Assembly: GCA_032622095.1 (NCBI GenBank)
Contig: CP136063.1
Coordinates: 219,745,982 to 219,809,981 of the forward strand
Length of the DNA stretch: 64,000 nt
Direction of reading: 5' to 3'
Source: Siphonodentalium dalli
Lineage: Eukaryota; Mollusca; Scaphopoda; Gadilida; Siphonodentaliidae
Position 1 is the stretch's first letter. The number at the start of each line of letters is the position of its first letter. Made by a program: the position numbers and the translations under genes. Under the pieces are notes generated by a model. The model searched no databases. It was given only the letters and a program-made list of their open reading frames with translations, and was not told the DNA's origin. Positions 204-62,380 of the stretch are shown here, one piece after another.

Positions 204-312
204 GAGTGAGCTTCCTACAGAACAACATGAAGGGCTGAAGAATAAAATTCTAGAGAAGATTATTGAATATGCACGAGGTCCGAAGATAGTCTTGACCAGG
301 TTGGCCGTTGCT
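204..312 (+). CDS. IPO13: IPO13 exon a (N-terminal HEAT region)
   Basis: The exon encodes SELPTEQHEGLK and, near its end, GPKIVLTRLAVA, matching the segment after IPO13's N-terminal importin-beta domain. The first base G completes a split codon; TG|G, the conserved Trp before S-E/D-I/L-P, is expected. It ends on a complete codon before donor GTAAGT at 313. Its last 30 bases are the exonic part of the 47-bp array that follows. Confidence 0.92.
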
Positions 313-3300
313 GTAAGTAGACCCTCTTTAAGATAGTCTTGGCCAGGTTGGCCGTTGCTGTAAGTAGACTCTCTTTAAGATAGTTTTGACCAGGGTGGCC
401 GTTGCTGTAAGTAGACTCTCTTTAAGATAGTGTTGACCAGGTTGGCCGTTGCTGTAAGTAGACCTTCTTTAAGATAGGTTAGACCAGGTTGGCCGTTGCT
501 GTAAGTAGACCCTCTTTAAGATAGGTTAGACCAGGTTGGCCGTTGCTGTAAGTAGACCCTCTTTAAGATAGTCTTGACCAGGTTGGCCGTTGCTGTAAGT
601 AGACCCTCTTTAAGATAGTCTTGACCAGGTTGGCCGTTGCTGTAAGTAGACCCTCTTTAAGATAGGTTAGACCAGGTTGGCCGTTGCTGTAAGTAGACCC
701 TCTTTAAGATAGTCTTGACCAGGTTGGCCGTTGCTGTAAGTAGACCCTCTTTAAGATAGTTTTGACCAGGTTGGCCATTGCTGTAAGTGAACGCACGTTA
801 ATTCTCACATCTCCCAGGGCTCAAACAAGCTTGAGTATAAGGTGCCTGTCATTTGCGGAATAAGGTCCCCAGAGGGTGAATTTAGTGATGCTATCCCGCA
901 TATCAGGCTAGCATCACCAAGTTCACCCTCTGGGGACCTCATTCTGCATAGGAGATATAGACTCGGATTGAAGTTCCCAAATGGTGAATGTTGTGATGTA
1001 CATCCATTGGGAACCTCAATTATGCAATGAGTCGTCTACCAATTTGGGGATTTTGAGAAACTAAACTAAAAAATGAATAGAATCTATGTGAAGAAGTTTC
1101 TATAGAAATTTGATAATAAAGAAAATTTCCAGAGATGATGAGGCCTAAGCAGAATGAGGTCCTCAGAGGGTGAATTTAGTGATTCTAGCCCTCTATGCGG
1201 GATAACATCACTAAATTCACCCTCTGTGGACCTCATTCTGCAAATGACAGGGGCACACAAAACTCAGACTTGGGCTCAAAATGTACAACTGTCACTGACA
1301 AATCATTATACCCCCCCCCCCCCCCCCCCCCCAAGGAGATGTTATGCTGTCATCTTGGATTTCACATTTGAATCCATCGGCACGTCATGCAGCTGGCAGC
1401 CATCTTGGATTTTACTCTTTGCATCACTAAATACTTCAGCACACCCTGCAGATGGAATTTTTCATCCAATTGATCTGAAACTTTGTGTGGCTCTTCAGGT
1501 TGATCTCTGCTTTGCTTAAACAATTAAACTTCCACATTCCTTATCACTCCATTGACTATGTATGATATTATCCCCTCTCCAAGTTGAGCTACAGTGTCAT
1601 TGAGGCAACCATACTTCGATGTAAACCAGTATTATCCCTACCAATTTCACCAGCTGGTTTACGTTGAAGGAAACTTGGATAATCATCTTAGGTCGTGTTT
1701 GAATGATCTGCTCACGAGGTAGCATGAAGGGAACAAGATCCTCATGTAACAGGTTTTGTTTCTTCTCAAGTTACGGCCAGTAGAGTTTAAAATAGATCTA
1801 TCATGTATCTCCGTCATCTTAAAGCGTTTGCGAGCATACTCTCTTTTTTTGATGAACCACAATGAGATGAAGGATATCCACGTGCATTTGGTTTTATCAG
1901 TCAATGCAGGCCAGATTAAAGCATCTTTCAAATTAACCATCTCAGAAAATTAACTCTTTCGTGACGGGAGCTGCGCTGACGCAACATTAAAGACCCTGTG
2001 CCTATGCATTATCTTATCGTGAGTCAACCATAGGTCGCCTTACATGTTTTAGAGAATGCATTGGCCTAACAATTTTTTATAATTTTTTCTTTTATTCTTT
2101 ATCAATTTTATCACTTTTTATCATTTTTTTGTACATTCTTTAACAATTTTGTGATTTTTTATGATTTTTTCTTACATTCTTAAAAAAATATTTCTTACAT
2201 ATGGTCGACTTGCATATATAAGAGAATGCATTAGCACAGGGTCTTTAATGTTGCGCCAGCGCAGCGCCCGTCATGAAAGGGTTGAATGTTATTTGGAATG
2301 CTAATAGACCGAGATTGGTGGAAAGATACTGACTGGTATTTTTATCAGAGTTATTGGCCTTGTTGGAAATAGCAAGATTTGCCATCTTAGCTTCATACTT
2401 ACAGTAATGTCCTAAATAATCAACCCCTTAACCACAGCAGAATTAAGGGAAATTTTTCAGGATTTAGTCGGAAATATGGCTTGCTGCCATTCATCAGAAA
2501 GCTCTTGGTGAGAGCTTTCCGATGAATGAATGGCAACAAGCTATACCGGTATTTCCGACTAAATCCTAACAAATTTCCCATAATTCTGCTGTGGTTAAAG
2601 GGTCATCACTGTAACATTGTTACTCAAGTACCAACAGTTGAATTTGAATATCTTTGGAATAGTGATAATGGGTTTTATCCATTGATTTCCTCAGAGTTAT
2701 GGACCTTTACTGTGCTTGCTTTTTAGTTATTCATTTTGTCAATTTATATTATTCATAACTCTCCATGAATGGAGGAAATAAAGATATATATATGCTTACA
2801 TTCTATAACACGGTATCTTATTTCAGATGTCTGCTTACATTCTATAACACGGTATCTTATTTAAGATGGCTGCTTACATTCTATAACACGGTATCTTATT
2901 TCAGATGGCTGCTTACATTCTATAACACGGTATCTTATTTCAGATGGCTGCTTACATTCTATAACACGGTATCTTATTTCAGATGGCTGCTTACATTCTC
3001 AAAACAATGCCAGAACTGTGGCCTGAACCAATCAACACACTTATTTCAACATTCCAGCAGGATTCAAACATCCACTTAGAGGTGAGTACTGTGCTTATAG
3101 ATTTTTATCACATAATTAGCCCCTAAACCCAACCTCATATTTTTAGTTAGTCCAAGTCTTCTCGTACTAAAGCCGGCTAAGATATCGGGATGGAGGTGCC
3201 GGTCTTTAGTCCGAGTTCCAGGCCCATGCATTCCTTTGACAGGACTTAAGCGTTAGTGATCCGCTCAAATAAAACCACAATTATATGAAATAAAATATCA

Positions 3301-6300
3301 CAATTGCTACAATAAACGGATAGTTTCCGCAGAAGACATGCTATTTTATCTGAAACCCACATCGGTTGTGAATTGAAAGCGGTAATTTAATGTGAAAAGA
3401 AACATTTGCCGCAGTGTTTACATATTTTTTAAAGTATGCGAACTCAGTTGACCTTGCGAACTGCGTTCGGCATTTTCCGTTGAAAATATTCCGTAGATTT
3501 TGGACAACAACGCAAATTACGATGAATTCTCCATTGTAATCGTAATTATGTGTGTCAATAAATAAAATAATAAATAGATTAATTAAACATTGGAGATATA
3601 AATGTAATACACTAAATAAATGAACCTTAAGTTTGAAAAGTCCCACTAAAACGGAAGAACTATATTTCGAAACTGTGTGATTCGGTTCTCCGATTATTTT
3701 ATCAACACAGATGTCAAATGCACATCACGCATGGCAAGTCAGACACAAGAGTTCTAATTTGCTCCAATTTTGACAAGTTGCTTGCGAAAATTGTCAACAA
3801 AACTACCGTTCTGATCCTCCATTATGTCATTAAGTTTTTAGTGCGGGAATTGTTCTGAAAGCACATAGAAAACTGGACTTTCGGGCGATCGGTTTTCGCT
3901 ATTTTTGTTCGGAAAACCCGCGCTATATATAGAAACGGAAAGTAGAATTAGTAGAACAAACAGCGGATTATGCCGAACTTATTCGGACCACTTCGGCTTT
4001 CGGTTAAAATGTAAACAAACAGAGAAACAAATCGATGTGTGTGGCAATCAACCGGAATATTCTATGTGTAATTTAACATTAAAGTTAGATTATTATACAC
4101 CATTATGACCATAAGATGTAAGCCTTTCCGATGCATATAGCATCATGTATTGATTTGCTAGGTAAATCCAGTAAAATACACCACAAATTCCCGCCACAGA
4201 TCGTGGGCGTAAGTCGTGTCAAAGGATTGGTATACAAGCGGTCTTGGACTAAAGACCAGCATCGCCATCCCAATATCTTAGCTGGTTTTAGTACAAGAAG
4301 ACTTGGACTAATTTTTAGTAAGACACACGTGTATTATCATCATGCGCAGTGACGTAATAGCTTAGTGCAATTATGTTGATTCAATGCCGGAACTTTATTA
4401 TTATGTTAATTAGAATATAATTATGATATTCAATTTTTGTTGGATTATTTAGTGTTGACTGCGAGATAAACATGGGTGATTATGGTGGTTGAAAAATTTT
4501 GTCAACATCAAAAGCACATTTACTATTTTTGTCTTGAAGGTGTTTTTACTTCCTCTTTTGTTGTGATAAATAAATAAATATTAATTTTGTTTAACCCCAG
4601 CTGTTTCGATATCATTTTTCCTTGCTAAAATGTGATTATGTGATAAAATGGATCTCAAATTATATACAAAATGTATTAACCTCTTCCACTAAATTTGATT
4701 CGACCCTTGCTAAAACTAGGCTCGATTCAAATTTAGTGCACTCGGTTTATAGAATTGTGACTTATTGGAGATCCTCTATATATAGACCTTGATCAGGGTT
4801 TCCGCTAGGTGTTGTATCAACCCATATACCATAGGTCGCCTCGCATATATAAGAGAATGCATTGGCCTAACCCAAAACAAAAAAAACAAAACAAAAACAA
4901 AAACAAATCATTTTTTGAATTTTTAGGGCACTCTACAGACCATAAATTAGGGCCGATGAGATCGGCCCCTGGCACTAAAAGGGTTAATCATGCAATTTGG
5001 TTCTGAAAGCTCAATAAAAAATGTGTCAATGTTACTTTATTCCTGAATTTTGACGAACTAAAACACATGGAATCTTTATCAACTAACTTTTTATGTACAT
5101 ATGTTTGGGAAATAATTGCCGCTGGGTTACTAAAATTAAATCCAGAGCTAGCCAACTCAGAGGTGGAATGCTTCATTGGTTTTGGCCCTATAAAAAAAAT
5201 AATCCTACTGGGGAAAATTCCAGTCCATCAATCAGCTGCGAATATCTAATAGTAATTAGTCAATCAGTCGATAATTTAAGCTCAAGTTCTGAACATGATG
5301 AATGAAAATACATCTAACTGAATGAGTCAATGCTCTTCTTTGTCAAGTCTGAGTCCAGTATGCCTATCATTTGGAGAATGAGGTCCCCAGAGGGTGAATT
5401 TAGTGACGCTGTCCCGCATAGCAGGCTAGCATCACTAAATTCACCCTCTGGGGACCTCATTCTGTTTAGGCCTCATATTCTCTGGAAAGTTTCTTAATTA
5501 TCAAATTTCTACAGAAACTTCTTCACATAGAGGTTTAGTTTAGTTTCTCTATATCCCCAATTGGCAGATGACACATTGCATAATCGAGGTTCCCACAATA
5601 TTCACCATTTGGAAACTTATATCTGAGAAACTGAGTCTATGTCTCCCATAGCAGATGAGGCCATGCAGACTGAGGTCCCAAGAGGGTGAATTTGGAGACG
5701 CTAGCCCTCAATCCTTGTTCATTGTGGTAAATTTATTATCATTTGTATGGATCCTCCCACTTTAATATGAGATATTGTTTCGTGTATGGATTATGCCATA
5801 ATGTCTGATTGTACAGTGTGAACAATCTATATGTTCTGAATTAATTTTATAGGATGTCAAGCGGTGCCAAGTTCTATTGGAATTACTCACTGTGTTGCCA
5901 GAAGAGGTTAGTACAAATTTGAATTTTTAAAACAAACTGTCAAAATAATGGTGCTATATTACATGCAATTTAAAAAATGTTTGTATTTTACTGTGCCTAC
6001 CTAATATTTGATTGAATGCGACAAAATGCAGGTTGTGTGACCAAAGTGAATCACAACAAAATACATATCAAAGAGAATTAACACCACAATTTAACTACTA
6101 CTCACTTTCTCATTTGCCTACATAAAGTCTGCTTAACAAACATTAAGCAAGTCTGAGTTTAGTGTTCCTGTCATTTGCAGAATGATGTCCCCAGAGTGTG
6201 AATTTGGTGATGCTATACCGCATAGCGAGCTAGCATCACTAAATTCACCTTCTGGGTACCTCATTCTGCTTAGGCTTCATCTTCTCTGGTAAGTTTCTTT

Positions 6301-9300
6301 ATTATCAAACATTCTATATAAACTTCTTGATATATGTTATATTTGTTATTTAGTTTGGCAGAAGACACATTGCATAAACGAGGTTCCCAGCTAGTAGCTG
6401 ATAATTGCGAAATTACTTCAAAGTTTGTGCACAATGTATAATATTTTGACTTCATTGTTTCAGTTCTTCAGTAGTAATTTAACGCAGTATAGACGAGGGG
6501 TTCTACGTAATGAGCTACATAAAGGCATTTCTACAAGTAGGTATTGTTATGTTGTTAGGCCCACATTTCTACAAGTAGGTATTGTTATTATGTTAGGCCC
6601 ACATTTCTACAAGTAGGTATTGTTATGATGTTAAGCCCACATTTCTACAAGTAGATATTGTTATGATGTTTGGCCCACATTTTTACAAGTAGGTATTGCT
6701 ATGATGTTAGGCCAATAACAAATATTTATTCTCAGGCACCTCCCTCGTAATCTGAAGAGGGCCTCACTCGTTTAATTCCACTGATTCCATTACCCTTTCT
6801 TGACGGGAGCTGTGCTGGTGCAGCATTAAAGATCCTGTGCCAGTACATTTTCTTATATATTCGAGTCTCCCATAGGGAGAATGCACTGGCTTACAAGGTC
6901 AAGGTAAATATTGTTAGGCCAATGTATTCTCTTATATATGTGAGGCTCCCTATGGGAGACTGGGAGACTCGCATATATAAGAGAATACATTGGCACATTG
7001 TTTTTCGCAAAATTTCTTGAAGATCCAGTCATAGAAGGGTTAAAGGGATACAAGGCACTCGCAGTAGCTAGATGTTCCAAAAATATAAAAGTCTGTTAAA
7101 CACATCACCACTAAGAAGAACATGGAGATAAACTTTGTTCTTATATTCATACAGTGATTTGTCAACAAACATCACTAATCCTTCAAATATTATAGCCTAA
7201 GGCCAAAAAAAAGATTTTTGATTCTCAGACAATGCTGCCCGGTTTGGACCATTTTATTACGATTTTGGATTTCAAGTTTTCACCGTAGTTGTAAACAGTA
7301 ACACGAAAATAGGATATTGTCACTCAGAAATTAGTTATGTTTCAAATATCGAATAGGAGCTAAATACAAAGGTGTATGTGTGTGTATTCAACAAAAGACC
7401 ACATGCAACGATAACTATCATGTACATTGTCACCACAGGCTGTCCAAACCCCCAAGTTTATTGGTCAAATGTGTTGAAATATTTTGGCAAAAAGTAGGAG
7501 GTTGGATATTGAATGAGTCATCCGCCAACCTGACCTTTGCGACCATTGCACAGTAAAACACTGCAAAGTATTTCCAACCTTGCTTTTGCTATCGAAGGCA
7601 CGCCAGCCACCTCCCAAAAAATGATGGCTAAAACCATCTATATACAACACATTGTATACCTGTAGTTACTATAGTATGGATGGATAGATAAATATAGATA
7701 TACCACTTGTTTCTTACAAACGTCTCTCACCTCTCTTGAATTATTTAACGTAATTCTCGGAACCAATTGATTACTCTCTATCAGCCCTCATAATAATTGG
7801 CTACGACAATCAGCAATGCCGAAGCCATTTGCTGAAGTAAACTGGGCCATGGCAAAGGATTGCCATAACAGATTGCTGAAGCCAAACAATCTGAATTTAA
7901 AGGGCTGCTCAAAAGAGAAAGAATTTACTGATTATTCCAGATTATTCTGGTGACTAATCAAATGAAACAAGGCATGGTAACAACATAGACAGTTGGAAGC
8001 AAAGTTTGATTCAATGATTGTTCAATTGAATTTTTTTATTTTGCCACATGTATTTGTTTTTTTTTGCAAATTTGGCAAGTGGCAGCGCGAACTCTGATCT
8101 CTGATGTGATTCTTGTTTTAATTGACAGTTCTTCCTTTACTACAAAGTTTGATGACACCTCAGTCACCCTTTGAAGTTTATAGAGAAGCTTTGAAGTGTT
8201 TCTCCAGCTGGGTCGAGTTCGGATGTCCGTTGGTGGAAAGCGAACAGGCCATACTACAAGTCTTTCAATCTCTACAGAATGATGAACTATTTGAGAATGC
8301 TGTTGATACCCTCGTTAATGTCTTCTCACATCCTGAGTCACATAGGTGAGGTATAAATGATGAACTGTTTGAAAATGCTGTAGATAAAGTCATCAAAGTC
8401 AATATACAATTACATGAAATTCTGAAGTATTGATGCAGAAGAAAATTGCGAATTTTTGGGCTGTATAAAGTGTGGACCTGGGATGGGGTGTGAAATGGTA
8501 ATGCTTTACCTTGTACAGTAATCGACCAATCCCTGGTGTGGACAAGCGTCATTTTATTATACCCCCTTTAAAAAAAAAAAGGGGGGGCATACTGTTTTGC
8601 ACCCATCCGTCCATGTGTCATACCGTATGTCTGTCCATACGACTGTCTGATGTCTGTTCATGTCATAACTTGAACAGTAGTGCTCTGATTTCAATTAAAT
8701 TTGTTATGGATGTTCAATACTATGAGGACATTCAATGATGTGTTCAATAATTTTGTTTTGGTTTTTCGTTCTATAGTTATTCATCTTTGTTTACATGAAA
8801 ATGCAGATATTTTGGGTCCATTTGTCTGAGTATCAGTCATGTTTTGTAGATATGCCCTCAATAGGCAGTATGCCACAAGGGGATATGCACCGGACGACAG
8901 TCCATCTCGTGTTTCATATGTTAAGATGTATTTCTTTGTTTATTCAGATATTCTATCACAATACAAAAACTTCTTCCACAAGTTCTTAAAATGGTTGATC
9001 TCCTAAAGAAAGCTATTGATGAGACTGACAGGGTGAGTTCTGTATAAGCTATTTATGAAACTGACAGGGTGAGTTCTGTATAAGCTATTGATGAGACTGA
9101 CAGGGTGAGTTATGTATAAGCTATTGATGAGACTGACAGGGTGAGTTATGTATAAGCTATTGATGAGACTGACAGGGTGAGTTCTGTATAAGCTATTGAT
9201 GAGATTGACAGGGTGAGTTCTGTATAAGCTATTGATGAGACTGACAGGGTGAGTTCTGTATAAGCTATTGATGAGACTGACAGGGTGAGTTCTGTATAAG

Positions 9301-12300
9301 CTATTGATGAGACTGACAGGGTGAGTTCTATATAAGCTATTGATGAGACTGACAGGGTGAGTTCTGTATAAGCTATTGATGAGACTGACAGGGTGAGTTC
9401 TGTATAAGCTATTGATGAGACTGACAGGGTGAGTTCTGTATAAGCTATTGATGAGACTGACAGGGTGAGTTCTGTATAAGCTATTGATGAGACTGACAGG
9501 GTGAGTTCTGTATAAGCTATCGATGATACTGACAGGGTGAGTTATGTATAAGCTATTGATGAGACTGACAGGGTGAGTTATGTATAAGCTATTGATGAGA
9601 CTGACAGGGTGAGTTATGTATAAGCTATTGATGAGATTGACAGGGTGAGTTCTATATAAGCTATTGATGAGACTGACAGGGTGAGTTATGTATAAGCTAT
9701 TGATGAGATTGACAGGGTGAGTTCATGATAAGCTATTGATGAGACTGACAGGGTGAGTTATGTATAAGCTATTGATGAGACTGACAGGGTGAGTTATGTA
9801 TAAGCTATTGATGAGACTGACAGGGTGAGTTATGTATAAGCTATTGATGAGACTGACAGGGTGAGTTATGTATAAGCTATTGATGAGATTGACAGGGTGA
9901 GTTCTATATAAGCTATTGATGAGACTGACAGGGTGAGTTATGTATAAGCTATTGATGAGATTGACAGGGTGAGTTCATGATAAGCTATTGATGAGACTGA
10001 CAGGGTGAGTTATGTATAAGCTATTGATGAGACTGACAGGGTGAGTTATGTATAAGCTATTGATGAGACTGACAGGGTGAGTTATGTATAAGCTATTGAT
10101 GATATTGACAGGGTGAGTTCACGATAAGCTATTGATGAGACTGACAGGGTGAGTTCTGTATAAGCTATTGATGAGACTGACAGGGTGAGTTATGTATAAG
10201 CTATTGATGAGATTGACAGGGTGAGTTCATGATAAGCTATTGATGAGACTGACAGGGTGAGTTATGTATAAGCTATTGATGAGACTGACAGGGTGAGTTA
10301 TGTATAAGCTATTGATGAGATTGACAGGGTGAGTTCATGATAAGCTATTGATGAGACTGACAGGGTGAGTTATGTATAAGCTATTGATGAGACTGACAGG
10401 GTGAGTTCTGTATAAGCTATTGATGAGACTGACAGGGTGAGTTATGTATAAGCTATTGATGAGACTGACAGGGTGAGTTATGTATAAGCTATTGATGAGA
10501 TTGACAGGGTGAGTTCATGATAAGCTATTGATGAGACTGACAGGGTGAGTTCTATATAAGCTATTGATGAGATTGACAGTGTGAGTTCTGTATAAGCTAT
10601 TGATGAGACTGACAGGGTGAGTTATGTATAAGCTATTGATGAGACTGACAGGGTGAGTTATGTATAAGCTATTGATGAGACTGACAGGGTGAGTTATGTA
10701 TAAGCTATTGATGAGATTGACAGGGTGAGTTCATGATAAGCTATTGATGAGACTGACAGGGTGAGTTATGTATAAGCTATTGATGAGACTGACAGGGTGA
10801 GTTATGTATAAGCTATTGATGAGACTGACAGGGTGAGTTATGTATAAGCTATTGATGAGACTGACAGGGTGAGTTATGTATAAGCTATTGATGAGACTGA
10901 CAGGGTGAGTTATGTATAAGCTATTGATGAGATTGACAGGGTGAGTTCTATATAAGCTATTGATGAGACTGACAGGGTGAGTTATGTATAAGCTATTGAT
11001 GAGATTGACAGGGTGAGTTCATGATAAGCTATTGATGAGACTGACAGGGTGAGTTATGTATAAGCTATTGATGAGACTGACAGGGTGAGTTATGTATAAG
11101 CTATTGATGAGATTGACAGGGTGAGTTCTATATAAGCTATTGATGAGACTGACAGGGTGAGTTATGTATAAGCTATTGATGAGATTGACAGGGTGAGTTC
11201 ATGATAAGCTATTGATGAGACTGACAGGGTGAGTTCTGTATAAGCTATCGATGATACTGACAGGGTGAGTTATGTATAAGCTACTGATGAGACTGACAGG
11301 GTGAGTTATGTATAAGCTATTGATGAGACTGACAGGGTGAGTTCTGTATAAGCTATTGATGAGACTGACAGGGTGAGTTCTGTATAAGCTATTGATGAGA
11401 CTGACAGGGTGAGTTCTGTATAAGCTATTGATGAGACTGACAGGGTGAGTTCTGTATAAGCTATTGATGAGACTGACAGGGTGAGTTATGTATAAGCTAT
11501 TGATGAGACTGACAGGGTGAGTTATGTATAAGCTATTGATGAGACTGACAGGGTGAGTTCTGTATAAGCTATTGATGAGACTGACAGGGTGAGTTCTGTA
11601 TAAGCTATTGATGAGACTGACAGGGTGAGTTATGTATAAGATATTGATGAGACTGACAGGGTGAGTTCTGTATAAGCTATTGATGAGACTGACAGGGTGA
11701 GTTCTGTATAAGCTATTGATGAGACTGACAGGGTGAGTTATGTATAAGCTATTGATGAGACTGACAGGGTGAGTTCTGTATAAGCTATCGATGAGACTGA
11801 CAGGGTGAGTTCTGTATAAGCTATTGATGAGACTGACAGGGTGAGTTCTGTATAAGCTATTGATGAGACTGACAGGGTGAGTTCTGTATAAGCTATTGAT
11901 GAGACTGACAGGGTGAGTTCTGTATAAGCTATTGATGAGACTGACAGGGTGAGTTCTGTATAAGCTATCGATGAGACTGACAGGGTGAGTTATGTATAAG
12001 CTATTGATGAGACTGACAGGGTGAGTTATGTATAAGCTATTGATGAGACTGACAGGGTGAGTTCTGTATAAGCTATTGATGAGACTGACAGGGTGAGTTC
12101 TGTATAAACTATTGATGAGACTGGCAGGGTGAGTTCTGTATAAGCTACTGATGAGACTGACAGGCTAGCCTGAGATTAGTGTGCCTGTCATTTGCAGAAT
12201 GAGGTCCCCAGAGGGTGAATTTAGGGTGAACATTTTCATGAAATGATGGGTAGTTACCTGATTCCCATTCTTTTAGGTAGGTTCGATAATTAGGAGTAAA

Positions 12301-15300: not shown

Positions 15301-18300
15301 GATATTCAATTGCATAAATCACATATGTTTTGAATGTTTGCCCCTGATGTTGGCTGATATTCAGAATGCCTTTTTTCGCAATTTTTCCTTGACCATGTCT
15401 GGTTTTCATTCTATATAAATTGGAGTAGTGTCACAATTTGTCCTTGATTATGACTGATATTTATTGAAATGTGTTTTGAAATTGTTTGAAATTTATTTTT
15501 GATGTTTTCTAATTTCATGATATGATTCTCATACTTTTTTGTCAATTTTCCATGATATTGGTCGAATATTTATCCATTTCATAAATTTCATTTACTTGAC
15601 AACTTCTGCTTGGCGTTGGCAGATTTTCAGTCATGTAATTTTCATTTGTCATGGTTGTCATGGTGACTGTAATAAGTTTTCACTGTTCCAGGATGAATTG
15701 GGATCTTTGGAGCCACCTAAATATTACTCTTTGTTACCAGTATTCCAGCCTCTATATCTCTCTCTGATAGAGATTCTACTCATCAAAGTCCAGTATCCAC
15801 TTGACACAGAGCACGACTCCTGGTCATCAGGTATGGGTTTAATACACTATATTATAATTATACCCCATGTAACGACTCCAGTATCCGATCGACACAGAGC
15901 ACGACTCCTGGTCATCAGGTATGGGTTACACTATATTATAATTATACCCCCCGTAATGACTCCAGTATCCGATCGACACAGAGCACGACTCCTGGTCATC
16001 AGGTATGGGTTACACTATATTATAATTATACCCCCCGTAATGACTCCAGTATCCGATCGACACAGAGCACGACTCCTGGTCATCGGGTATGGGTTACACT
16101 ATGTTATAATTATACCCCCCGTAATGACTCCAGTATCCGATCGACACAGAGCACGACTCCTGGTCATCAGGTATGGGTTACACTATATTATAATTATACC
16201 CCCCGTAACGACTCCAGTATCCGATCGACACAGAGCACGACTCCTGGTCATCAGGTATGGGTTACACTATATTATAATTATACCCCCCGTAATGACTCCA
16301 GTATCCGATCGACACAGAGCACGACTCCTGGTCATCAGGTATGGGTTACACTATATTATAATTATACCCCCCATAATGACTCCAGTATCCGATCGACACA
16401 GAGCACGACTCCTGGTCATCAGGTATGGGTTACACTATATTATAATTATACCCCCCGTAATGACTCCAGTATCCGATCGACACAGAGCACGACTCCTGGT
16501 CATCAGGTATGGGTTACACTATATTATAATTATACCCCCCGTAATGACTCCAGTATCCGATCGACACAGAGCACGACTCCTGGTCATCAGGTATGGGTTA
16601 CACTATATTATAATTATACCCCCCGTAATGACTCCAGTATCCGATCGACACAGAGCACGACTCCTGGTCATCAGGTATGGGTTACACTATATTATAATTG
16701 TACCCCCGTAATGACTCCAGTATCCGATCGACACAGAGCACGACTCCTGGTCATCAGGTATGGGTTACACTATATTATAATTATACCCCCCGTAATGACT
16801 CCAGTATCCGATCGACACAGAGCATGACTCCTGGTCATCAGGTATGGGTTACACTATATTATAATTATACCCCCCCGTAATGACTCCAGTATCCTATCGA
16901 CACAGAGCACGACTCCTGGTCATCAGGTATGGGTTACACTATATTATAATTATACCCCCCGTAATGACTCCAGTATCCGATCGACACAGAGCACGACTCC
17001 TGGTCATCAGGTATGGGTTACACTATATTATAATTATACCCCCCGTAATGACTCCAGTATCCGATCGACACAGAGCACGACTCCTGGTCATCAGGTATGG
17101 GTTACATTACATTTTCCTGGGAGGCCATGAATAGTCTTTAATATTGGCTTATATGTGGCAAACAAACCTGGATATAATATGTCTGACATTTGGTCCCCAG
17201 AGGTTGAATTTACTGATTCTACCCCGCACAGCAAGCTAGTGTCACCAAATTCATCCTCTGGGGATCTCATTCTGCTTAGGCTTCATCTGCTATGGGAGAC
17301 CAAGACTCCAATTTAAGTTCCCAGATGGTGAAGATGGCGATGTGCAGCTAATGGGCATCTCGATTATGGATTGTGTCATCTGCGAATTTGGGGATATAGA
17401 GAAACTAAAGAAGTTTCTAAAGAAACCGAAAAACTTGATAATATTTAATAATAAAGATATTTCAGAGAAGATGAGGCCTAAGCTAAGCACAATGATGTCC
17501 GAAGAGGATGGATTTAGTGATGCTATCCCGCTATGCAGGGTAGTGTCACTGAAATCACCCTCTAGGGGACCTCATTCTGCCAATTTCAGGCACCATATTT
17601 TCAGTCCTCCAACCTTCTATCACATATAGATATCACATATGGATATCACATATAGATGTGAACAACAAACTCAAATGGTCGACAGCCAAAAAGAAGGCAA
17701 TCATCCTCCATTTAAGAATAGATATGTATTTTGTTAATAATTTGTCTGTTTTTCGGACTATCCATTTGCACAGATGTTGAAGACTTGGGTTATAGATCTT
17801 TTTAATTTAGTACCAATATTCATTTATGTTATCAGGTAAACTTTCAAACAAGTGTCAAATGCTATTGTTCACATTTTCCATTCTGTAGTTATTCTTCTTT
17901 GTTTATCTGCACCCCATCCAATTGGCGCAACCTCTTGATATTATTCAGTTTTCACTATATCTTCTTAGTATCCCTCTAAATTTTCTAAACTAAATTGCCT
18001 CGAAATTGGCAATTTTATTCTATGGCAGTACATCGCTGTAGATAGATGTGAATTCACATGGCACACCTATGGCATTGTTCCATAAACGGGATTATACCCT
18101 GCTACATTCAAAATTTATTATCTGTTAACTCATCTTATCTTCGAATTCATTTGTCAGTCAATGATGATTGACACTGAGAACAATGTGATAGCCTTCAATG
18201 ATTGCCAGTTGGTGGAAAATACCCAACTTTGTCAGCAAGATAATGAGAATATTGCGAGCTAGTTATTTATTGGCTGCATGACTTCAATTGAATTTATGAT

Positions 18301-21300: not shown

Positions 21301-24300
21301 TAGTTACTTTTCCCCTTCTGTTTAGTTTCTTTATCCCCTCATTTGCAGAAGATAAATTGCATAATCTTGGGTGACTAATGGGTGAACATCACCAACTTCG
21401 ACAGGGGAACTTCAATCTGATCGTAGGTCTACCATAGCAGTTGAGGCATAAGTAGAAAGAAGGTTAATTTGGTGATGCTAGCCCACTGTGCGGGATAGCA
21501 TCACTAAATTTACCCTCTGGGGATTTCATTCTGCAAATGACAGACGCACTTTATGCAGGCTTGTATGTTATTAAAATATAGATAACACTAAGACCATATA
21601 AAGTAATCTTTCTTCTTTTTGTTCAAAGTCCATACAGGCATTACTTTTCATTTTTAAAGGGTTTTGTAAGGAATATTTGTTTAAACGTTACATTTGCAAA
21701 TGTTGCCTTCCAGAAATAAAACTTTGCATACATGAAATGAGGATAAATGAGCTCAAAGGTGAATACTAACATCCCTTCTCATACCTTCCAGCTGATAGAA
21801 GCTATCTTCTTCCTGTTTGGCTCGGTGGCTGAGAGCATTGATTTAGAAGAAAGCACAAGTATGCCCGTGTTACTGAGCATGTTACCGCAGATTCCATTCA
21901 ACAACATACGACTCATATCAACAGCACTCTATATGATCGGTGAGTTTATACGAGTCTGTGTTACTGAGACATACAAATCATATCTACAGCACTCTACATG
22001 ATCGGTGAGTTTATACAAGTCCGTGTTACTGAGACATACAAATCATATCTACAGCACTCTATATGATCGGTGAGTTTATACGAGTCCGTGTTACTGAGAC
22101 ATACAAATCATATCTACAGCACTCTATATGATCGGTGAGTTTATACGAGTCTGTGTTACTGAGACATACAAATCATATCTACAGCACTCTATATGATCGG
22201 TGAGTTTATAGGAGTCTGTGTTACTGAGACATACGACTCATATCTACAGCACTCTATATGATCGGTGAGTTTATACGAGTCTGTGTTACTGAGACATACG
22301 ACTCATATCAATAGCACTCTATATGATCGGTGAGTTTATTCGAGTGTGTTACTGAGACATACAAATCATATCTACAGCACTCTATATGATCGGTGAGTTT
22401 ATAGGAGTCTGTTACTGAGACATACAAATCATATCTACAGCACTCTATATGATCGGTGAGTTTATAGGAGTCTGTGTTACTGAGACATACGACTCATATC
22501 AATAGCACTCTATATGATCGGTGAGTTTATAGGAGTCTGTGTTACTGAGACATACGACTCATATCAATAGCACTCTATATGATCGGTGAGTTTATGCGAG
22601 TCCGTGTTACTGAGACATACGACTCATATCTACAGCACTCTATATGATCGGTGAGTTTATACGAGTCTGTGTTACTGAGACATACAAATCATATCTACAG
22701 CACTCTATATGATCGGTGAGTTTATACGAGTCTGTTACTGAGACATACAAATCATATCAACAGCACTCTATATGATCGGTGAGTTTATTCGAGTCTGTGT
22801 TACTGAGACATACAAATCATATCTACAGCACTCTATATGATCGGTGAGTTTATACGAGTCTGTGTTACTGAGACATACAAATCATATCTACAGCACTCTA
22901 TATGATCGGTGAGTTTATACGAGTCTGTGTTACTGAGACATACAAATCATATCTACAGCACTCTATATGATCGGTGAGTTTATACGAGTCTGTGTTACTG
23001 AGACATACAAATCATATCTACAGCACTCTATATGATCGGTGAGTTTATACGAGTCTGTGTTACTGAGACATACAAATCATATCTACAGCACTCTACATGA
23101 TCGGTGAGTTTATAGGAGTCTGTGTTACTGAGACATACAAATCATATCTACAGCACTCTATATGATCGGTGAGTTTATAGGAGTCTGTGATACTGAGACA
23201 TACAAATCATATCTACAGCACTCTATATGATCGGTGAGTTTATACGAGTCTGTGTTACTGAGACATACAAATCATATCTACAGCACTCTACATGATCGGT
23301 GAGTTTATACGAGTCTGTGTTACTGAGACATACAAATCATATCTACAGCACTCTACATGATCGGTGAGTTTATAGGAGTCTGTGTTACTGAGACATACAA
23401 ATCATATCTACAGCACTCTATATGATCGGTGAGTTTATACGAGTCTGTGTTACTGAGACATACAAATCATATCAACAGCACTCTATATGATCGGTGAGTT
23501 TATACGAGTCCGTGTTACTGAGACATACAAATCATATCTACAGCACTCTATATGATCGGTGAGTTTATACGAGTCTGTGTTACTGAGACATACAAATCAT
23601 ATCTACAGCACTTTATATGATCGGTGAGTTTATACGAGTCTGTGTTACTGAGACATACAAATCATATCTACAGCACTCTATATGATCGGTGAGTTTATAC
23701 GAGTGTGTTACTGAGACATACAAATCATATCTACAGCACTCTATATGATCGGTGAGTTTATACGAGTCCGTGTTACTGAGACATACAAATCATATCAACA
23801 GCACTCTATATGATCGGTGAGTTTATAGGAGTCTGTGTTACTGAGACATACAAATCATATCTACAGCACTCTACATGATCGGTGAGTTTATAGGAGTCTG
23901 TGTTACTGAGACATACAAATCATATCTACAGCACTCTATATGATCGGTGAGTTTATACGAGTCTGTGTTACTGAGACATACAAATCATATCTACAGCACT
24001 CTATATGATCGGTGAGTTTATACGAGTCTGTGTTACTGAGACATACAAATCATATCTACAGCACTCTATATGATCGGTGAGTTTATACGAGTCTGTGTTA
24101 CTGAGACATACAAATCATATCTACAGCACTCTATATGATCGGTGAGTTTTGTCCACACGGGCCTGTAAAAACTCAAATTTTATTCATTCCCTTTGATATA
24201 TAATGTCCTAACTTAGTAATTTGGCCGTGTTTTGATTTTGAAATCGGGAATGATATTTTAACAATATTCAAACACATTACCTATAGATTGACGATGTTGG

Positions 24301-48300: not shown

Positions 48301-51300
48301 CAAATTCACCTTCTTGAACCTCATTCTGCTTAGGCCTCAACTGTTATAGGAGACCTGTGATCAGATTGAAGTTCCACAGTTGAAGGTGGTGATGTTCACC
48401 CGTTAGTCACCTCGATTATGCATTTTTTCTTCTGCGAATTAGGGGATATAGAAACTTCCTAGAAGGAAAAGAGTAAATAAAACAACCTTAATTTGAGACT
48501 ATAGATACTTCCCTGAAGATGATGCCTAAGCTGAATGAGGTCCCCATAGGCTGAATTTGGTGATGATAGCCTGCTATGCGAGATATCATCACTAAATTCA
48601 CCCTCTAGGTTGTTACTGCTACACTCACAGCATATAATAAATTGGGTGTATTCAAAACTATGTTCTTTGGTAGCCAGGGTTACCGCTAGAGGGTCAGTCG
48701 GTCCCTATCTTTTGGGGTCCCTTTCCCCCAGCCACATTTCCCCTCTGAAATAGCTTGATGACTACATCACCTGTGTATCTCCCACTTTATAATAAAACCA
48801 ACTCGGAATGATAAACTAAAAGAAGTTTATTTTCCAATGTTGACCACTAGTGAACAGTAATACTTTTCAAGGATACACACATCATTAGTTATTGCCTTGT
48901 TTTGAAATATATCGAAGTGAACATCACCAAAAATTGTGTTTTATGCTGCCGAGTTATGTTGCCATTACCGTGCCAAATAAAACATATAAGAAATGACTGG
49001 AAGATCAATTGGTATCATTGGATTTTGACTGGTAGAGTGAATAAATAAATAAAGTGTGTGAATACCAAAGGGGTTAATTACTCTGCCAGTCCAAACTAAC
49101 GACCCCGATCAATCTCCCAGTCATTCCTCATAATCATGTACCAGTATAGTTTATTAGAACATCTAACAGTTTTCTGCACTACCAAAATTGTTGCATATAA
49201 CATAGTGTTCAAACATCTCCCAATAACAATATGCAGTGAGCGCGTGCATATAATCGGCTTGAAGTGAGGATGGCGGTTTATCACTTTTTATGCAGTGGCA
49301 AGCCTTGAAATAGCATGTCTGTCATTTGCAGAATGAGGTCCCCAGAGGGTGAATTTGGTGATGCTAGCGCGCTATGCGGGGTAGCATCACTAAATTCACC
49401 CTCTGGGAACCTCATTCTGCAAATGACAGACACTATTTCAAGGCTTGTGCAGTTATTGCTTGATGTACCTTGGAAATGTTCGTGTAAACTGTATTTTGAT
49501 TTGTACTGATTCTTACAGGCGATAATTGTGTGAATGTATAGGGTGTGTGATTATATTGCTATGAGGCTACCCCATTTTTTTCATGTAAACCTCAGGTTGT
49601 CAAAATTTAATCACAGTGTTGGAGAATGTTCATTTGCTGCAATATTGTTATGAATGCATTGTGGCTGTGAACTGAGGTATGCGATCCCAAAGTTTCCACG
49701 GAAACAGGGAAATAGTGCATTTGGTACAATCAAATTTAACTATCATAGTTTAATGATTGTTTGGTAACATTTTTCTTTGGAGTATCTGTACCTATCAATT
49801 GCTGTAGGAACTGTGCCACTTTAGAGGGCGTGGTTGACAAAAGTTTTGTCTATGCAATAAAATACAATTTTGATTTATGTTGATTGTTCTGTTTCAGACG
49901 TGAAGGAGCATACAGACATTATTGAGTCTTTCATGACGTTACTCTCTCAAGTAAGTTGATAAATTAATATAGTGTGTAGAACGTCAGACATTATTCAGTC
50001 TTTCATGACGTTACTCTCTCAAGTAAGTTGATAAATTAATATATTGTGTAGAACGTCAGACATTATTCAGTCTTTCATAATGTTACTCTCTCAAGTAAGT
50101 TGATAAATTAATATATTGTGTAGAACGTCAGACATTATTCAGTCTTTCATAATGTTACTCTCTCAAGTAAGTTGATAAATTAATATAGTGTGTAGAACGT
50201 CAGACATTATTCAGTCTTTCATAATGTTACTCTCTCAAGTAAGTTGATAAATTAATATATTGTGTAGAACGTCAGACATTATGCAGTCTTTCATAATGTT
50301 ACTCTCTCAAGTAAGTTGATAAATTAATATATTGTGTAGAACGTCAGACATTATGCAGTCTTTCATGATGTTACTCTCTCAAGTAAGTTGATAAATTAAT
50401 ATATTGTGTAGAACGTCAAATATTATTGAGTCTTTCATGATGTTACTCTCTCAAGTAAGTTGATAAATTAATATATTGTGTAGAACGTCAGACATTATTC
50501 AGTCTTTCATCATGTTACTCTCTCAAGTAAGTTGATAAATTAATATATTGTGTAGAACGTCAGACATTATTGAGTCTTTCATGACGTTACTCTCTCAAGT
50601 AAGTTGATAAATTAATATATTGTGTAGAACGTCAGACATTATTCAGTCTTTCATGATGTTACTCTCTCAAGTAAGTTGATAAATTAATATATTGTGTAGA
50701 ATGTCAAACATTATTGAGTCTTTCATGATGTTACTCTCTCAAGTAAGTGGATAAATTAATATATTGTGTAGAACGTCAGCTTTTTTTATCACAGCACAAC
50801 AACCCTTGGGTGAATGATATTTCATAGAGACAGATACGCTGTTTGGCATGTTTAAATTGGAAAAATCACATAAATAACTTGGGGGTAAAACATCAAAAAC
50901 ACAACTTTGTATGGCCTTAAATCAGTGTGTCATTAATTAATGAAAAACTGAGAATATCTTCATCAAAGATATCTTGTACACTGAACTGAAGCTCGGTTTC
51001 TAACAGAGCAAACAATGGCTAGGCATTATGACGATTGAAAATTTGTATGAATAATATGCGATTTATCTTGCTATAAACAGCAGAAGAAAGAAAGAGGAAG
51101 ATCTTACCTCATTGTTCCCTTTATAAGGAAATAGCGGCACGTGGTTAGTGAGAACTAATTTTGATTGACAAGTGCGCGAAAACGTACCATAGGTATTTTG
51201 TACCATTTCATTACCTATGATTATATTTTTTAAAATCTTCTGTGATATGCTAAGCATGAACGATAACCAATAGTTCAGTGTCCGAGATAATTATTAGGAG

Positions 51301-54300
51301 ATATATATTTTGTTAAGAAAATATAATTTTTATATGAGTAGATATGACAGTCATTACGACCGCTACACTGGCAGCTGTCAAATCATCATGACCACTACAC
51401 TGACGACAACTACACTGGTGACCACTATACTGGCGACTGTCATTACGACCACTACACTGGCGACTGTAGAATTATTATGACCACTACACTGGCAGCTGTC
51501 ATTATGACCACTACACTGGCGGGTGTCTTACAACCAATACACTGTCGGCTGTCATTACAACCACTACACTGCCAGCCACTACACTGACGACTGCTACACT
51601 GGTGACCACTACACTGGCGGCTCTCATTACAACCACTACACTGGAGGCTGTCATTACGACCACTACACTGGAGGCTGTCATTATGACCACTACACTTGCA
51701 GCGACTACACTGGCGACCACTACACTGGTGACCATTCCGCTGGTGGCCTCTACTGGCAGCCACTACTGGTGGCCACTACACTGGTGGCCAGTACTTTTGG
51801 CCACTACACTGGTGGCCACTACTGGCGACCAGTACACTGATGGCCACTATTGGCAGCCACTACTGGTGGCCACTATACTGGCGGCCACCACTGGCGGCCA
51901 CTACTGGTGGCCACTACACTGGTGGCCACTACACTGGTGGCCACTACACTGGTGAACACTACACTGGTGAACACTACACTGGCGGCCACTACTGGCAGCC
52001 AAAACTGGTAGCCACTACACTGGCGGCCACTACACTGGCGGCTGCAAAATTTGTTATAAATGTAAGGATTGGGGTCAAGCCTTGAAATAATTATTGTCAC
52101 AGTGCCTGTCAAAATGACAGACACCAAATGGATGGTGGCTTTCATTTTCTGGGCGATGTCTGTCAAAATTATGTGCTGTCATTTGTTCTCATATCTTATT
52201 TTATGTGATAAATAATGCTTCAATACCATGTAAAATAATCTCATGTGAGCTTAAAAAGTTACTCTCAGTGCTACTGCTGCCATCATGCTTTGTTTTTAAT
52301 AGAAACATTACTTCATCAATGACCGCCTAACAGCATTAACCAACTAAGCCAGAATTTAGTAGTATCCTATCAGGCTATCATCCCCTCCGGTAACCCCCCC
52401 CCCCACCCTTAATAAGAAATAAAATGCAAAATCATGGCATTATGCGATAGCGTTAGCATAATTCTGGCTCCATAATCTGGAACTGGTTAAAATATTTTGT
52501 TACATCTTACATGTTTATGATCATTTTCTTCAAATTTCTTGACAAGATACAACATTTCTAGTTGGACTTGGATATAGGATATTGAAATATGGTGAGATGC
52601 AGTATCTGCATTTTAAGTGGGTAACAACCCTCTTCTTCTCTGCCTCGAATTGCAACCACCGAACATCGGAACAAGATTGTGCTCCAGCAATTCGGAAATC
52701 CATTTGTGAACTGTGGGTCACTTTTACTGTTCGACCAGTGATCCCCCGTTTCATTATTCATGTAATTAAATTCTGCTTCAAACTGCCGTACATCTATCGT
52801 ACTGCTGGACTAGTGGACTAGTAGTATAAGCATTTTTTATTTCTTAATTCTTATTTTAAATATCGTATGCATGACCTTGATTTAAAACGGAAGTGCTAAA
52901 AGGTTACCGGTAAGCCAATAATTACGAACCGCACTTTAAACGAACCGAAACGAAACTTCCGAGTGGATGACGCGATTAAAGTACAACGCGTTATGCCGTT
53001 ATCTGATATAGCCGTACGAAACTATGCAATAAATTCATGTATCTAAGTGAACCTTCAGACGACCACGATTCAATCGTAAGTGGAAGGATTTTCGTCGTAG
53101 GAAGTAACAGGAAGATGGAGTGCGCATGCTCACGTCTAAATCGTAGAACAAAAAATAATATCAGACAGTGTTTGATTTTAGATGCGATATCGTGGCGTAT
53201 CCTTGGTTACATCCACTTGCGACGTAATCGCAGCCGTGTGTATGTAAAAATCGTAGCTGGAAATGGTTGTAGGGTAGTCAATCACATGCTTTAGAACAAC
53301 CTACGATAGAATAATGCACGTGACATCGCAATCGTCTGAACAAACTATCCACGATCTCGTCGGGCCCGATCCCTCCACTTACGATGTGTATCGTGGTCGT
53401 CTGAAGGTACACTAATAGTTTTCTTTGATCCAGATTTGCAAAAATAATTTGTCAGAAATGTCTTATCCAGTAATATTTTATCTGATGGGAGTTGAAATAT
53501 TCTGTCGGACAAAATGTCCGACCAGATGCAAATTGTGTCGGTCAAAGCTGGTTTGGTGGCTGTCATTGACCGTGAGCGACCACTTATTTCAAGGCTTGAT
53601 TGGGGTTAACTCTTTTGATAAATCTTGTTTCAGATACTGAAGAAAACGAAAAGCTTGCTAACAGATGGGAGCATAAATCTTCATGGCTTATTTCATGCTG
53701 GTATGTTATATACTAAATATCAGTGGCTTATTTCATGCTGGTATGTTATGTTTTAAATATCAATGGCTTATTTCATGAGAGTATGTGTTATGCTTTAATC
53801 TCTAAGACTTGAGTTCACATGTTACTGGCAAGACGTGCAATATTTACAAAGTGCTAAGTGTGTTATTAATCTACATATCAATGGCTTATTTCATGCTACT
53901 ATGCTAACACTTTCTTTGTGCAAACAAAGTGTCACTACTTCGCTAACAATAATAAAATTACCAGGATCAACAAACAGGTGTAACCAACAAGGATGATTAA
54001 TTAAGAAGTTTACAGTAAACCACAACTCTTTCAGCATACAATTTGGAGATGTCAAGAAAACGCTAATATCTCTTAATTAACTCTGTGCTGATGGTTTCAC
54101 TGCAGTGTCCGGTCCCGCCTCATTTCCAGTAAAAACTTACACAAGGTAGCCCTCATCTGTTCATCCATGTATCCGTCAGCAATTTCCTTTTGCATGTATT
54201 ACAATTACAATCAACAGTTTTCATCTGATTCATTCCAAACTTCATATTAATCTTCGGGGTCACCTCTAGATGGTATTTATCATATTGTTCAAATTTTTTT

Positions 54301-57300
54301 TTTCAAAAATAGCTGTCAGTGGCCATCTTGAATTCATCGGCACACCCTGCAGTGCACATTTATTGGGGGAAATGTTACGAAAATTTACAGGCATATTTAG
54401 GATCACTTCCAGATGTGAACTGTTAAATTTGAATAATGTTCGATAAAAAACATGGCTGCTGACAGCCTTCTTAGATTTTACTCTTTGCATGACTAAGTCC
54501 TTCGGCACACCCTATAACCAACATTTTCCACAGATTGATCCCAAACTTCATACAGATCTTCTGGTTGACTTTTTGATGAGAGCTATTGAATTGAAAGATG
54601 CCAGCAGCCATCTTGGAATTTACGCTTTCCATTAATAAATCCGTTGGCATGCCCTACAAGCAACATTTTTCATCTGATTCATCCCAAACTTCATGTGACT
54701 CTCTGGGTTCACCTCTAGTATTACTTAAACATTTCAACTTTCCACATTCATTTTTTGACTGTAATTTATGACATGATCCCCTCTCCAAGTTGAGCTACAG
54801 TGTCATTGCCACTTTCATTTATAACATGACTACTTTCATTGTCATTTTATACTCAGGTATCATTGGAATGAGTCTTCCAGAACACTTAACAGTGAAGGCT
54901 TCCTGCTTATTTCTTGTAAGTATTAATATTAACCCTTTCAGTGCCAAGTCCGATTTTTGTATCAACCCATATTTCCTTGATCATTTTTCAAATTTATTGA
55001 TTATAATAATGTGATACATTGATGGAAAATGTATCACATTATTATAATCAATAAATTTGAAAAATGATCAAGGAAATATGGGTTGATACAAAAATCGGAC
55101 TTGGCACTGAAAGGGTTAAGGCTTAACTTAACACCCTTTTCAGATAGCCTGAACTTATTTTCATTGCTTACTCTCATGTTTTACAGGACTTATAAGAAAG
55201 CCGCACAAGCCTGGAAATAGTGCGTCTCTCATTTGCAAAATGAGGTTCCCAGTGGGTGAATTTAGTGACGCTATCCCACATGGCAGGCTAGCGTCATGAA
55301 ATTCACCCTCTGGGAACTTCATTCTGTTGAGGCCTCAACTGCTATGGGAGACCTAGGATCAGATTGAAGTTCCCCAGTCGAAGTTGGTGATGATGTTCAC
55401 CCATTAGTCACCTCAATTTAGCATTTCAGCTTGTACAAAACTGTGCTGCTAGGATTGTTACCAAAACAAAGAAATTTGATAACATCACTCCAATTTTAGC
55501 TAAATTACACTGGCTTCCCGTTGAGCAGAGGATCCATTTTAAGGTCTTGCTTTTCACTTATAAGTGTTTAAATAATCTGGCACCATCGTACTTGTCGGAT
55601 CTCATTCAGCGCTATCAACCCGTCAGACCCCTCAGGTCTGCCAAGGCAAATCAACTTGTCTATAAACCTGGGGATCTGGTTACATGCGGCGATCGCGCTT
55701 TTTCTGTGGCTGGCCCAAAGCTGTGGAATCTACTTCCTGATCACTTAAGGATTCCTCAAACCATAAATGAGTTCAAATCCGCACTTAAAACCCACCTGTT
55801 TGAAGTGGCATTTGGTCCTCGGCCCACATTGCGTAAAGTTAAGAAATAGCCGCAGTTTATGTTGTATATCTGTATTGTGTTGTATATGTTTTATGTGTAT
55901 ATTGTTAAGTCCGAGAGCACATTTGTGGAGTCGTGACTATAAACCTTATTATTATTATTATTATTATTTTATCTTCTGCAAATTAGGTTATATAGAAACT
56001 GAACAAAAGGGAAAAAGTAACAAAAAACAATGTTAATTTGAGACTATAGATACTTACCAGAATATGAGGTCTAAGCATCACTAAATTCACCCTCTGGGGA
56101 CCTCATTCTGCAAATGACAAGACACACTATTTCAAGGCTTGAAGCCACGCAAATTTCACACATTGGCAAATTTCAAAGCTTGGTATCCATGCCTGAATTT
56201 AATGTGTCTAACATTTGCAGAATAAGGTCCCCAGAGTGTGAATTTAGTGATGCTATCCCACACAGCGTGTTAGCATCACCAAATTCACCCTCTGGGGACC
56301 TCATTCTCCTCAGTCCTCATCTTTTAGGAAATATTTAGTTTCAAATTAACATTGTTAAATGCATAATCGAGGTAACATCACCAACTTCAACTGGGGAACT
56401 TCAATCTTATCCCAGGTCTCCAATAGCAGATGAGGCCTAAGCAGAATGAGGTCCCCAGAGGGTGAATTTAGTGATGCTATCCCACACAGCGTGTTAGCAT
56501 CACCAAATTTACCAGCTGGGGACCTCATTCTGCTTAGGCATCATCTTCTAGGAAATATCTAGTCTCAAATTAACATTGTTAAATGCGTAATCGAGGTAAC
56601 ATCACCAACTTCAACTGGGGAACTTCAATCTGATCCCAGGTCTCCAATAGCAGATGAGGCCTAAGCAGAATGAGGTCCCCCGAGGGTGAATTTGTTGATG
56701 CTATCCTGCCATGCGGGAAAGCGTCACTAAATTCACCCTCTGGGAACCTTATTCAGCAAATGTCAGACACTCTAAATTCAGACTTGCTGGTATGCTGACA
56801 TGTATGTCCAATTTCAGAGTAATTAATATTGTAATGAATGACGTGTATGACATATACTAGCAGCGGGCACCATGAACAATATTTACTTTCTATGTAAACT
56901 GATGAAAAAAATAGCCCAAAAAATTTGTTTCACAATAGTATCGGCTTGATGCTATCTGGTAATGTTTAGACAGAATACCAAACATACCTTTCCTTACTCC
57001 CTTGTCTGATTTTGTGTTGGAATATATTTTTCTGATTAAATTAACAGTTCAGTATTATTGATTGTTTTCTATTCTCAGATTTGTAACTTGTATTTTGTAG
57101 TTGTAAATCTGGTGGACGGAAGTAGAGGTGCCACGATTATTGATTTTGATAATCGATAATCGGTCATCAATAATCAATTATAATCGATTAATCGTACCTA
57201 ATATCAATAATAGTGGAAGTATTCCGTAATATGGCCTATTGGCTGGGTGTTGGTTAAAAAATTCGGCTGATGTAATTTTTACGTTAATAATGTGCACCAT

Positions 57301-61842: not shown

Positions 61843-62380
61843 GTTTACCCATACCATAGTATGGTAAACATAGTGTCGTTGTCCGGATTGACCACTCGTC
61901 GTTAGTCCGTCCATCCGTATGTCTGTCTGTCTGTAGACACTTTACGCATGGTGCGATAACTGAAATATTTTCTATCTGATCGGAACCAAATTTTGTATAT
62001 GAATTTCTCAGCACCAAATACAGATCGAGTTCGAATATGGGTTTGATCCGAGTTTATTTTAGGGAGTTATGGCCCTTTTTCAACTTAGAATTCATGCATG
62101 CTGCCATAACTAAAAAAATTCATCTGACCGTAACCAAATTTGGTATGCGAGTTGCTCAGCCCAAAATACATATCGAGTTCGAATATGGGTTTGATCCGAT
62201 ATTTTTTAATGGAGTTATGGCCCTTTTTCAACTTAGAATTCATGCATGCTTCAATCAATCAACAATTTTTCAACTGATAGGAACCAAATTTTGTATGTGA
62301 GTTTCCCAACTCAAAATACAAATCGAGTTTGAATATGGGTTTGATCTGATATTTTTTAATGGAGTTATGGTCTTTTGATT
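61843..62380. repeat. Dispersed repeat P, copy 2
   Basis: Hairpin GTTTACCCATACCATAGTAT(GGTAAAC), GTTGTCCGGATTGACCACTC, then three ~148-bp units with GAGTTATGGCCCTTTTTCAA. Confidence 0.8.

Follow-up and report, generated by a model that had tools for sequence, protein, structure and literature searches.

Minisatellites that lie across exon–intron borders are known from amphioxus, where a 2002 report is said to have given them the name 'mirages'. Mirages are minisatellite-like tandem duplications of the border itself, with units of 10–160 bp and splice signals in many of the copies; they occur in Adh3, the globin genes BflGb6 and BflGb9, troponin C and PGBD5, and were verified by their authors through re-sequencing or trace data (PMC3087553, PMC3902484). 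Length instability and somatic instability have been reported for the lancelet mirages, and the authors of the globin study regard the underlying mechanism as unclear.

Tandem duplication also features in models of intron gain; in the Rogers model, and in Gao and Lynch 2009, an intron is gained by tandem duplication across AGGT (as presented in PMC3087553). Fill-in synthesis by Pol alpha-primase at breaks yields small tandem duplications (PMC8355091), and intronic repeats have been described in earthworm metallothionein (PMC12783039).

The stretch of DNA analysed here, referred to as the window, comprises 64,000 nucleotides of the scaphopod mollusc Siphonodentalium dalli (C3:219745982-219809981), from an assembly of 2,226,750,531 bases (2.23 Gb) in 9 contigs. 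It carries most of a gene for importin-13 (IPO13) on the forward (+) strand, at 204..59083. With the human protein as bait, and with borders set from homology, reading frame and the GT-AG rule rather than from RNA, 23 exons were modelled: E1 (204-312), E2 (2983-3081), E3 (5853-5906), E4 (6464-6536), E5 (8129-8345), E6 (8948-9032), E7 (13583-13714), E8 (15132-15212), E9 (15692-15830), E10 (20161-20210), E11 (21036-21140), E12 (21792-21939), E13 (32046-32227), E14 (37073-37207), E15 (42502-42651), E16 (43571-43651), E17 (45302-45439), E18 (48092-48203), E19 (49898-49950), E20 (53634-53700), E21 (54857-54915), E22 (58078-58167) and E23 (58902-59083), all on the + strand. All introns of this model are GT-AG, and the joined exons give a single open frame of 846 amino acids. 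E1 matches solved importin-13 structures. Among the matches listed, the highest-ranking named relatives are molluscs, with 48-58% identity for the first 22. Upstream of the window, L037 has two further exons of the gene (about 161-283 and 2371-2430); downstream of it, L038 has the last one (4224-4337). TRF found a junction array on none of these three.

Within the window, TRF and the exon model together identify ten arrays that span IPO13 junctions, eight of them at donors and two at acceptors, all on the + strand. The donor arrays are those of E1 (283..788; 47-bp unit, 10.8 copies), E4 (6526..6713; 38 bp, 4.9 copies), E6 (9010..12164; 36 bp, 87.6 copies, with GT kept in each unit), E9 (15789..17113; 84 bp, 15.7 copies), E12 (21904..24149; 65 bp, 34.7 copies), E19 (49913..50779; 72 bp, 12.0 copies), E20 (53683..53777; 40 bp, 2.4 copies) and E23 (59052..59155; 42 bp, 2.4 copies). 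At the acceptors, E2 has a 39-bp array of 5.3 copies (2793..2999), and E23 is preceded by two duplications, 48 bp x2 and 135 bp x2, with four copies of the exon start (58561..58967). In addition, the donor end of E5 has a degenerate duplicate 78 bp further on (8278/8356), the pair extending over approximately 8278..8400 (+). The intact exon copy is the first in the donor arrays and the last in the acceptor arrays, and copies within an array are mutually diverged.

The original prediction, that arrays span exon–intron borders, reach into the intron and preserve a single intact copy of the exon, describes all ten. Its count of nine arrays with at least three units is too high by TRF, which gives seven; when every exon-edge copy is counted, E20 has three and the E23 acceptor four, while the E23 donor has two exact copies. 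The further statement that only three comparable arrays avoid exons does not agree with the data: among minisatellites of period 20-150 with at least 2.3 copies (n=16), seven lie away from junctions. A 30-bp array of 38 copies and 84% identity in the upstream part of the gene (L037 8794-9900) touches no exon found, so that long arrays also arise away from junctions.

These arrays are 'mirage' minisatellites, a structure known from amphioxus. In both cases the repeat units span the exon–intron border (ten arrays in IPO13 and 13 in the sample of other genes described below), the authentic copy is kept, and both 5' and 3' borders are affected (19 donors and four acceptors in the mollusc). Normal splicing of the mRNA in spite of the decoy copies, as expected of an amphioxus-type mirage, is inferred for the mollusc from the open frame of IPO13. 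This single frame runs through the exon-nearest splice sites and needs them, because use of any other copy would put repeat units into the message. The mollusc arrays differ from the lancelet ones in host lineage, in reaching up to 88 units, and in having a measured excess at junctions, a donor bias and a defined footprint. What is new is the occurrence, in a mollusc, of very long arrays, of an excess that extends beyond one gene, of a donor bias with a consistent footprint, of a contrast in homogeneity, and of a weak excess of units whose length is a multiple of 3; no earlier report of mollusc mirages, of such long arrays, or of the junction excess, donor bias, footprint or homogeneity contrast was found in the open-access literature subset. 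The structure itself had accordingly been published when it was claimed that no described process targets tandem amplification to splice sites, although the claim stands in so far as a splice-site-targeting process is not established in that literature.

Resemblance to the other systems is more limited. Intron gain of the Rogers type likewise involves tandem duplication with splice signals, but there the duplicated piece becomes the intron, whereas the IPO13 arrays fill part of longer introns; the E1 array, for example, accounts for 506 bp of the 2670-bp intron 1. Pol alpha-primase fill-in likewise produces short tandem duplications, and the abstract of PMC8355091 makes no tie to splice sites. 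Introner-like mobile elements were also considered and rejected, since on inspection each unit bears the end of its own exon, and unit lengths and consensus sequences differ.

How far the position of the arrays exceeds chance can be estimated within IPO13. A junction falls inside nine of the 16 arrays, compared with 0.63 expected for a randomly placed founder unit, and the maximum reached in 20,000 such shuffles was six. Shuffling of whole arrays gives 3.7 expected and p=0.00095, and the predicted association with junctions is upheld under both schemes. This bears on a reading in which nothing is targeted: duplications would occur anywhere, exonic ones would be removed, and those at junctions would survive by use of the exon-nearest splice site. 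Such a process should leave few arrays at junctions, because duplications within introns are tolerated too, and its expectation is that of the random founder, about 0.63 of 16.

As IPO13 had been selected for its arrays, exons of other genes were sampled from the same genome. Pfam models for Xpo1, kinesin, CCT chaperonin, adaptin and cullin were searched, and the matches were read as 3-kb loci or short stretches. After removal of six apparent segmental duplicates from 125 matches (second copies, recognised from position and score alone: L043, L051, L053, L056, L063 and L069), the remaining 119 and 20 cullin loci gave 139 exon matches from five families; these are heads of match lists or hand-picked lower ranks rather than a random draw of exons, and their borders were placed by eye from the Pfam matches and splice consensus, without RNA. 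Thirteen spanning arrays with at least 1.9 copies were found among them (L035, L060, L064, L074, L082, L092, L106, L108, L114, L118, L121, L127 and L135), against 3.15 expected (p=3e-5); at a threshold of at least 2.3 copies, ten were found against 1.63 (p=8e-6). An array at L106 (52-227) that only abuts its acceptor is not tallied as spanning. Nor is L015, which has no junction array; its kinesin-like match contains stop codons and a 31-bp exact duplication (x2; 1540-1601), and may represent a degenerate copy or a frame that was read wrongly.

The expectation derives from the array density 100-1400 bp away from the matches in 59 long loci (15 arrays in 153 kb), and presumes two junctions per match and a 60-bp founder; founders of 50 or 80 bp change it to 1.36 or 2.17 at the higher threshold. 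L017 was also kept in this background; its array is the same as the L035 one, and the density is raised accordingly. Most of the excess is carried by the short loci (eight spanning arrays against 0.94 expected), where arrays starting far from the exon can be hidden. The long loci alone, with two against 0.69, show no significant excess; they are the best-scoring matches, some lie in long open frames, and match ends there may not be exon ends. IPO13 is richer in spanning arrays than the sample: nine of its 26 exons have one, compared with 13 of the 139 matches (Fisher p=0.002), although IPO13 had been picked for its odd look.

The sample supports the view that splice-junction minisatellites are not confined to IPO13, and with it the original idea of repeated, independent births. 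For untargeted duplication with later tolerance, the sample adds a second shortfall (1.63 expected, ten seen), and we consider that reading improbable. An assembly artefact, or chance in a single gene, is extremely unlikely. Minisatellites are indeed hard to assemble and IPO13 was chosen as odd-looking; against this, the assembly has only nine contigs, unrelated units occur at junctions of several gene families, the copies within arrays have diverged, and the lancelet cases were re-sequenced or trace-checked by their authors. The measured excess argues for a splice-site-targeting process, without proving it, and suggests that working splice sites attract tandem-duplication mutation.

A general excess of arrays near exons was rejected as its source. 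In the 42 kb lying 20-200 bp from 117 matches, one array with at least 2.3 copies was found where about four were expected from the background, and this lone array has the same unit as the junction array of L064; the test is weaker than the main count because short stretches conceal some arrays. A donor-like DNA motif was rejected as well: a donor-like hexamer on the sense strand is present in two of 29 arrays away from junctions, compared with 0.94 expected, so few that the bare motif is not the cause. L017 and L018 were left out of the near-exon, identity and motif tests, and the second L064 block is included among the 30 'other' arrays of the identity test (see below) and absent from the 29 used for frame and motif.

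The anatomy of the units gives a more specific picture. Over 19 donor arrays from IPO13 and the sample, the exon part of the unit measures 11-72 nt (median 33) and the intron part 8-42 nt (median 17); the exon part is the longer (p=0.006). The junction is unevenly placed within the unit (P=0.001 for the mean and 0.002 for the spread), judged against random junction positions with at least one exon base and at least six intron bases. An impression from the ten IPO13 arrays that the junction is central in the unit (p=0.00025) gave way, over the 19 donor arrays, to an uneven, exon-weighted placement. Donors outnumber acceptors among the spanning arrays by 19 to four (p=0.0026). Acceptor copies should need more intron, as the pyrimidine tract and branch point must be included; the intron part is 22 bases in the E2 unit and 69 in the longer of the E23 duplications. 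Donors would then predominate because acceptor units need more intron than a whole 5' splice site, and a minimum of intron bases is expected at donors because a unit with less intron would leave the first copy lacking its 5' splice site. Tolerance by splicing can account for this donor bias, for the eight-base minimum and for the intact exon copy. It does not predict the exon-weighted footprint or the homogeneity contrast, and survival alone does not explain why arrays seldom start just inside the intron.

Unit lengths divisible by 3 occur in 13 of the 23 spanning arrays (p=0.019), compared with eight of 29 other arrays (Fisher p=0.048); this test was conceived after the lengths had been seen, and the excess is weak. 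Such lengths may be favoured by occasional splicing at decoys. If the excess holds, it would mean that such use occurs and that in-frame units are less costly.

Junction arrays are also more homogeneous than others, with a median identity of 96% (19 arrays) compared with 85% (30 arrays; p=0.0016), with no difference in copy number (p=0.30); the comparison preceded the cullin loci, and its 19 junction arrays include L106 52-227, which only abuts an exon. Junction arrays are thus younger or more strongly homogenised, and gene conversion could be an alternative source of the homogeneity.

This contrast is relevant to a further explanation, in which births are even and arrays tied to exons persist for longer or keep their homogeneity. 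The exon would hold its own copy constant and selection would remove any deletion that runs into it, or the decoys themselves would be maintained. The exon edge would provide a stable founder copy, and some conservation data are consistent with this: no changed GT or AG was found in the seven longer IPO13 arrays, and a 14-nt window around the decoy donor varies less than the remainder of the unit in 15 donor arrays (P=0.005), a result compatible with selection on decoys. In the same 15 arrays, the result is borderline for a 9-nt window (P=0.06); taken alone, the six intron bases show no special conservation (P=0.34). Over 18 arrays, seven of 456 decoy splice dinucleotide cells are changed, a proportion not below that of randomly chosen dinucleotides (P=0.39), and special conservation of decoy GT or AG is not upheld; within the IPO13 arrays, exon parts of decoys are not consistently better conserved than intron parts. 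Longer persistence, moreover, predicts older and more diverged arrays, and the greater homogeneity of junction arrays speaks against mere longer survival. Overall, this explanation appears rather unlikely. Five of the seven changed cells come from a single array in a kinesin gene (L039 1517-2660; 65 bp, 17.6 copies), the unit of which contains GGTGAGTAG; judged by flanking Pfam matches, it lies within an intron and is probably not a junction array.

The reading we prefer, and to which we give about an even chance, is that these mirage minisatellites stem from a duplication hot spot linked to splice sites and are then filtered by splicing. An array would be born when a segment lying across a working junction, usually a 5' splice site, and typically reaching from about -33 to +17, is duplicated locally in tandem; it would grow by slippage or unequal exchange. 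The excess and the homogeneity together suggest that what is raised at working splice sites is the birth of arrays and not their survival. Polymerase pauses and R-loops occur at 5' splice sites; a paused polymerase or an R-loop there may lead to transcription- or splicing-linked breaks, the overhangs of which could be filled in and joined to give the duplication, a step put forward as a proposal only. Splicing would then filter the survivors, in that a donor unit would have to keep the whole 5' splice site; the smallest intron part seen is 8 nt.

A bolder version is advanced more tentatively and has somewhat less than an even prospect of being right. Here, working 5' splice sites of this mollusc, and probably of lancelets too, would be germline duplication hot spots, with the -33 to +17 segment marked by transcription or splicing, several percent of junctions seeded, and the spliceosome reliably taking the first of up to 88 donors. 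If splice sites do seed duplications, splicing or transcription would shape germline mutation at exon edges, which would be relevant to intron gain, to variation at exon edges and to errors in gene models. The arrays also represent natural tests of splice-site choice, in which the first donor appears to be taken and up to 88 near-identical ones passed over.

Predicted importin-13 proteins of other animals, including lancelets and a clam, apparently hold such copies already. Among the best 120 of 357 matched proteins, five have an internal repeat of at least eight residues, and these five include Lamellibrachia and Polyodon. A 1400-aa prediction from Branchiostoma lanceolatum (P0038 181-680) contains many repeats from the acceptor orthologous to that of E5, most of them starting with V or F, as a junction-split codon would give. 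In B. belcheri (P0056 358-407) the start of the exon orthologous to E9 is repeated, and in Mercenaria mercenaria (P0029 268-336) the start of the E7 exon is repeated together with apparent translated intron. From their protein sequences, the lancelet and Mercenaria repeats look like acceptor arrays annotated as coding. As the orthologous junctions differ, IPO13 seems to have been hit at different junctions in different lineages.

Other repeats are also present in and near the window. One is a short palindromic element (GAGGTCCCCAGAGGGTGAATTTAGTGATG, or the reverse complement of this), with 21 matches on the + strand and 16 on the - strand of the window at no more than four mismatches, at 862, 1156, 5380, 5672, 6184, 12201, 13782, 19953, 21188, 31059, 43873 and 56224, among others. 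It is also found in L027, L039, L059, L068 and L086, and has the look of an abundant repeat of MITE or SINE type. Repeats of roughly 150 bp occur as three to four diverged tandem copies at 45812-46406 and 61946-62370; the two sets are related to each other and are probably part of a dispersed repeat family, and similar repeats of 150-170 bp are found in L040, L047, L050, L059 and L061. Finally, an open frame of 151 amino acids lies at 55394-55849, which we take to resemble the C terminus of a reverse transcriptase from a non-LTR retrotransposon.
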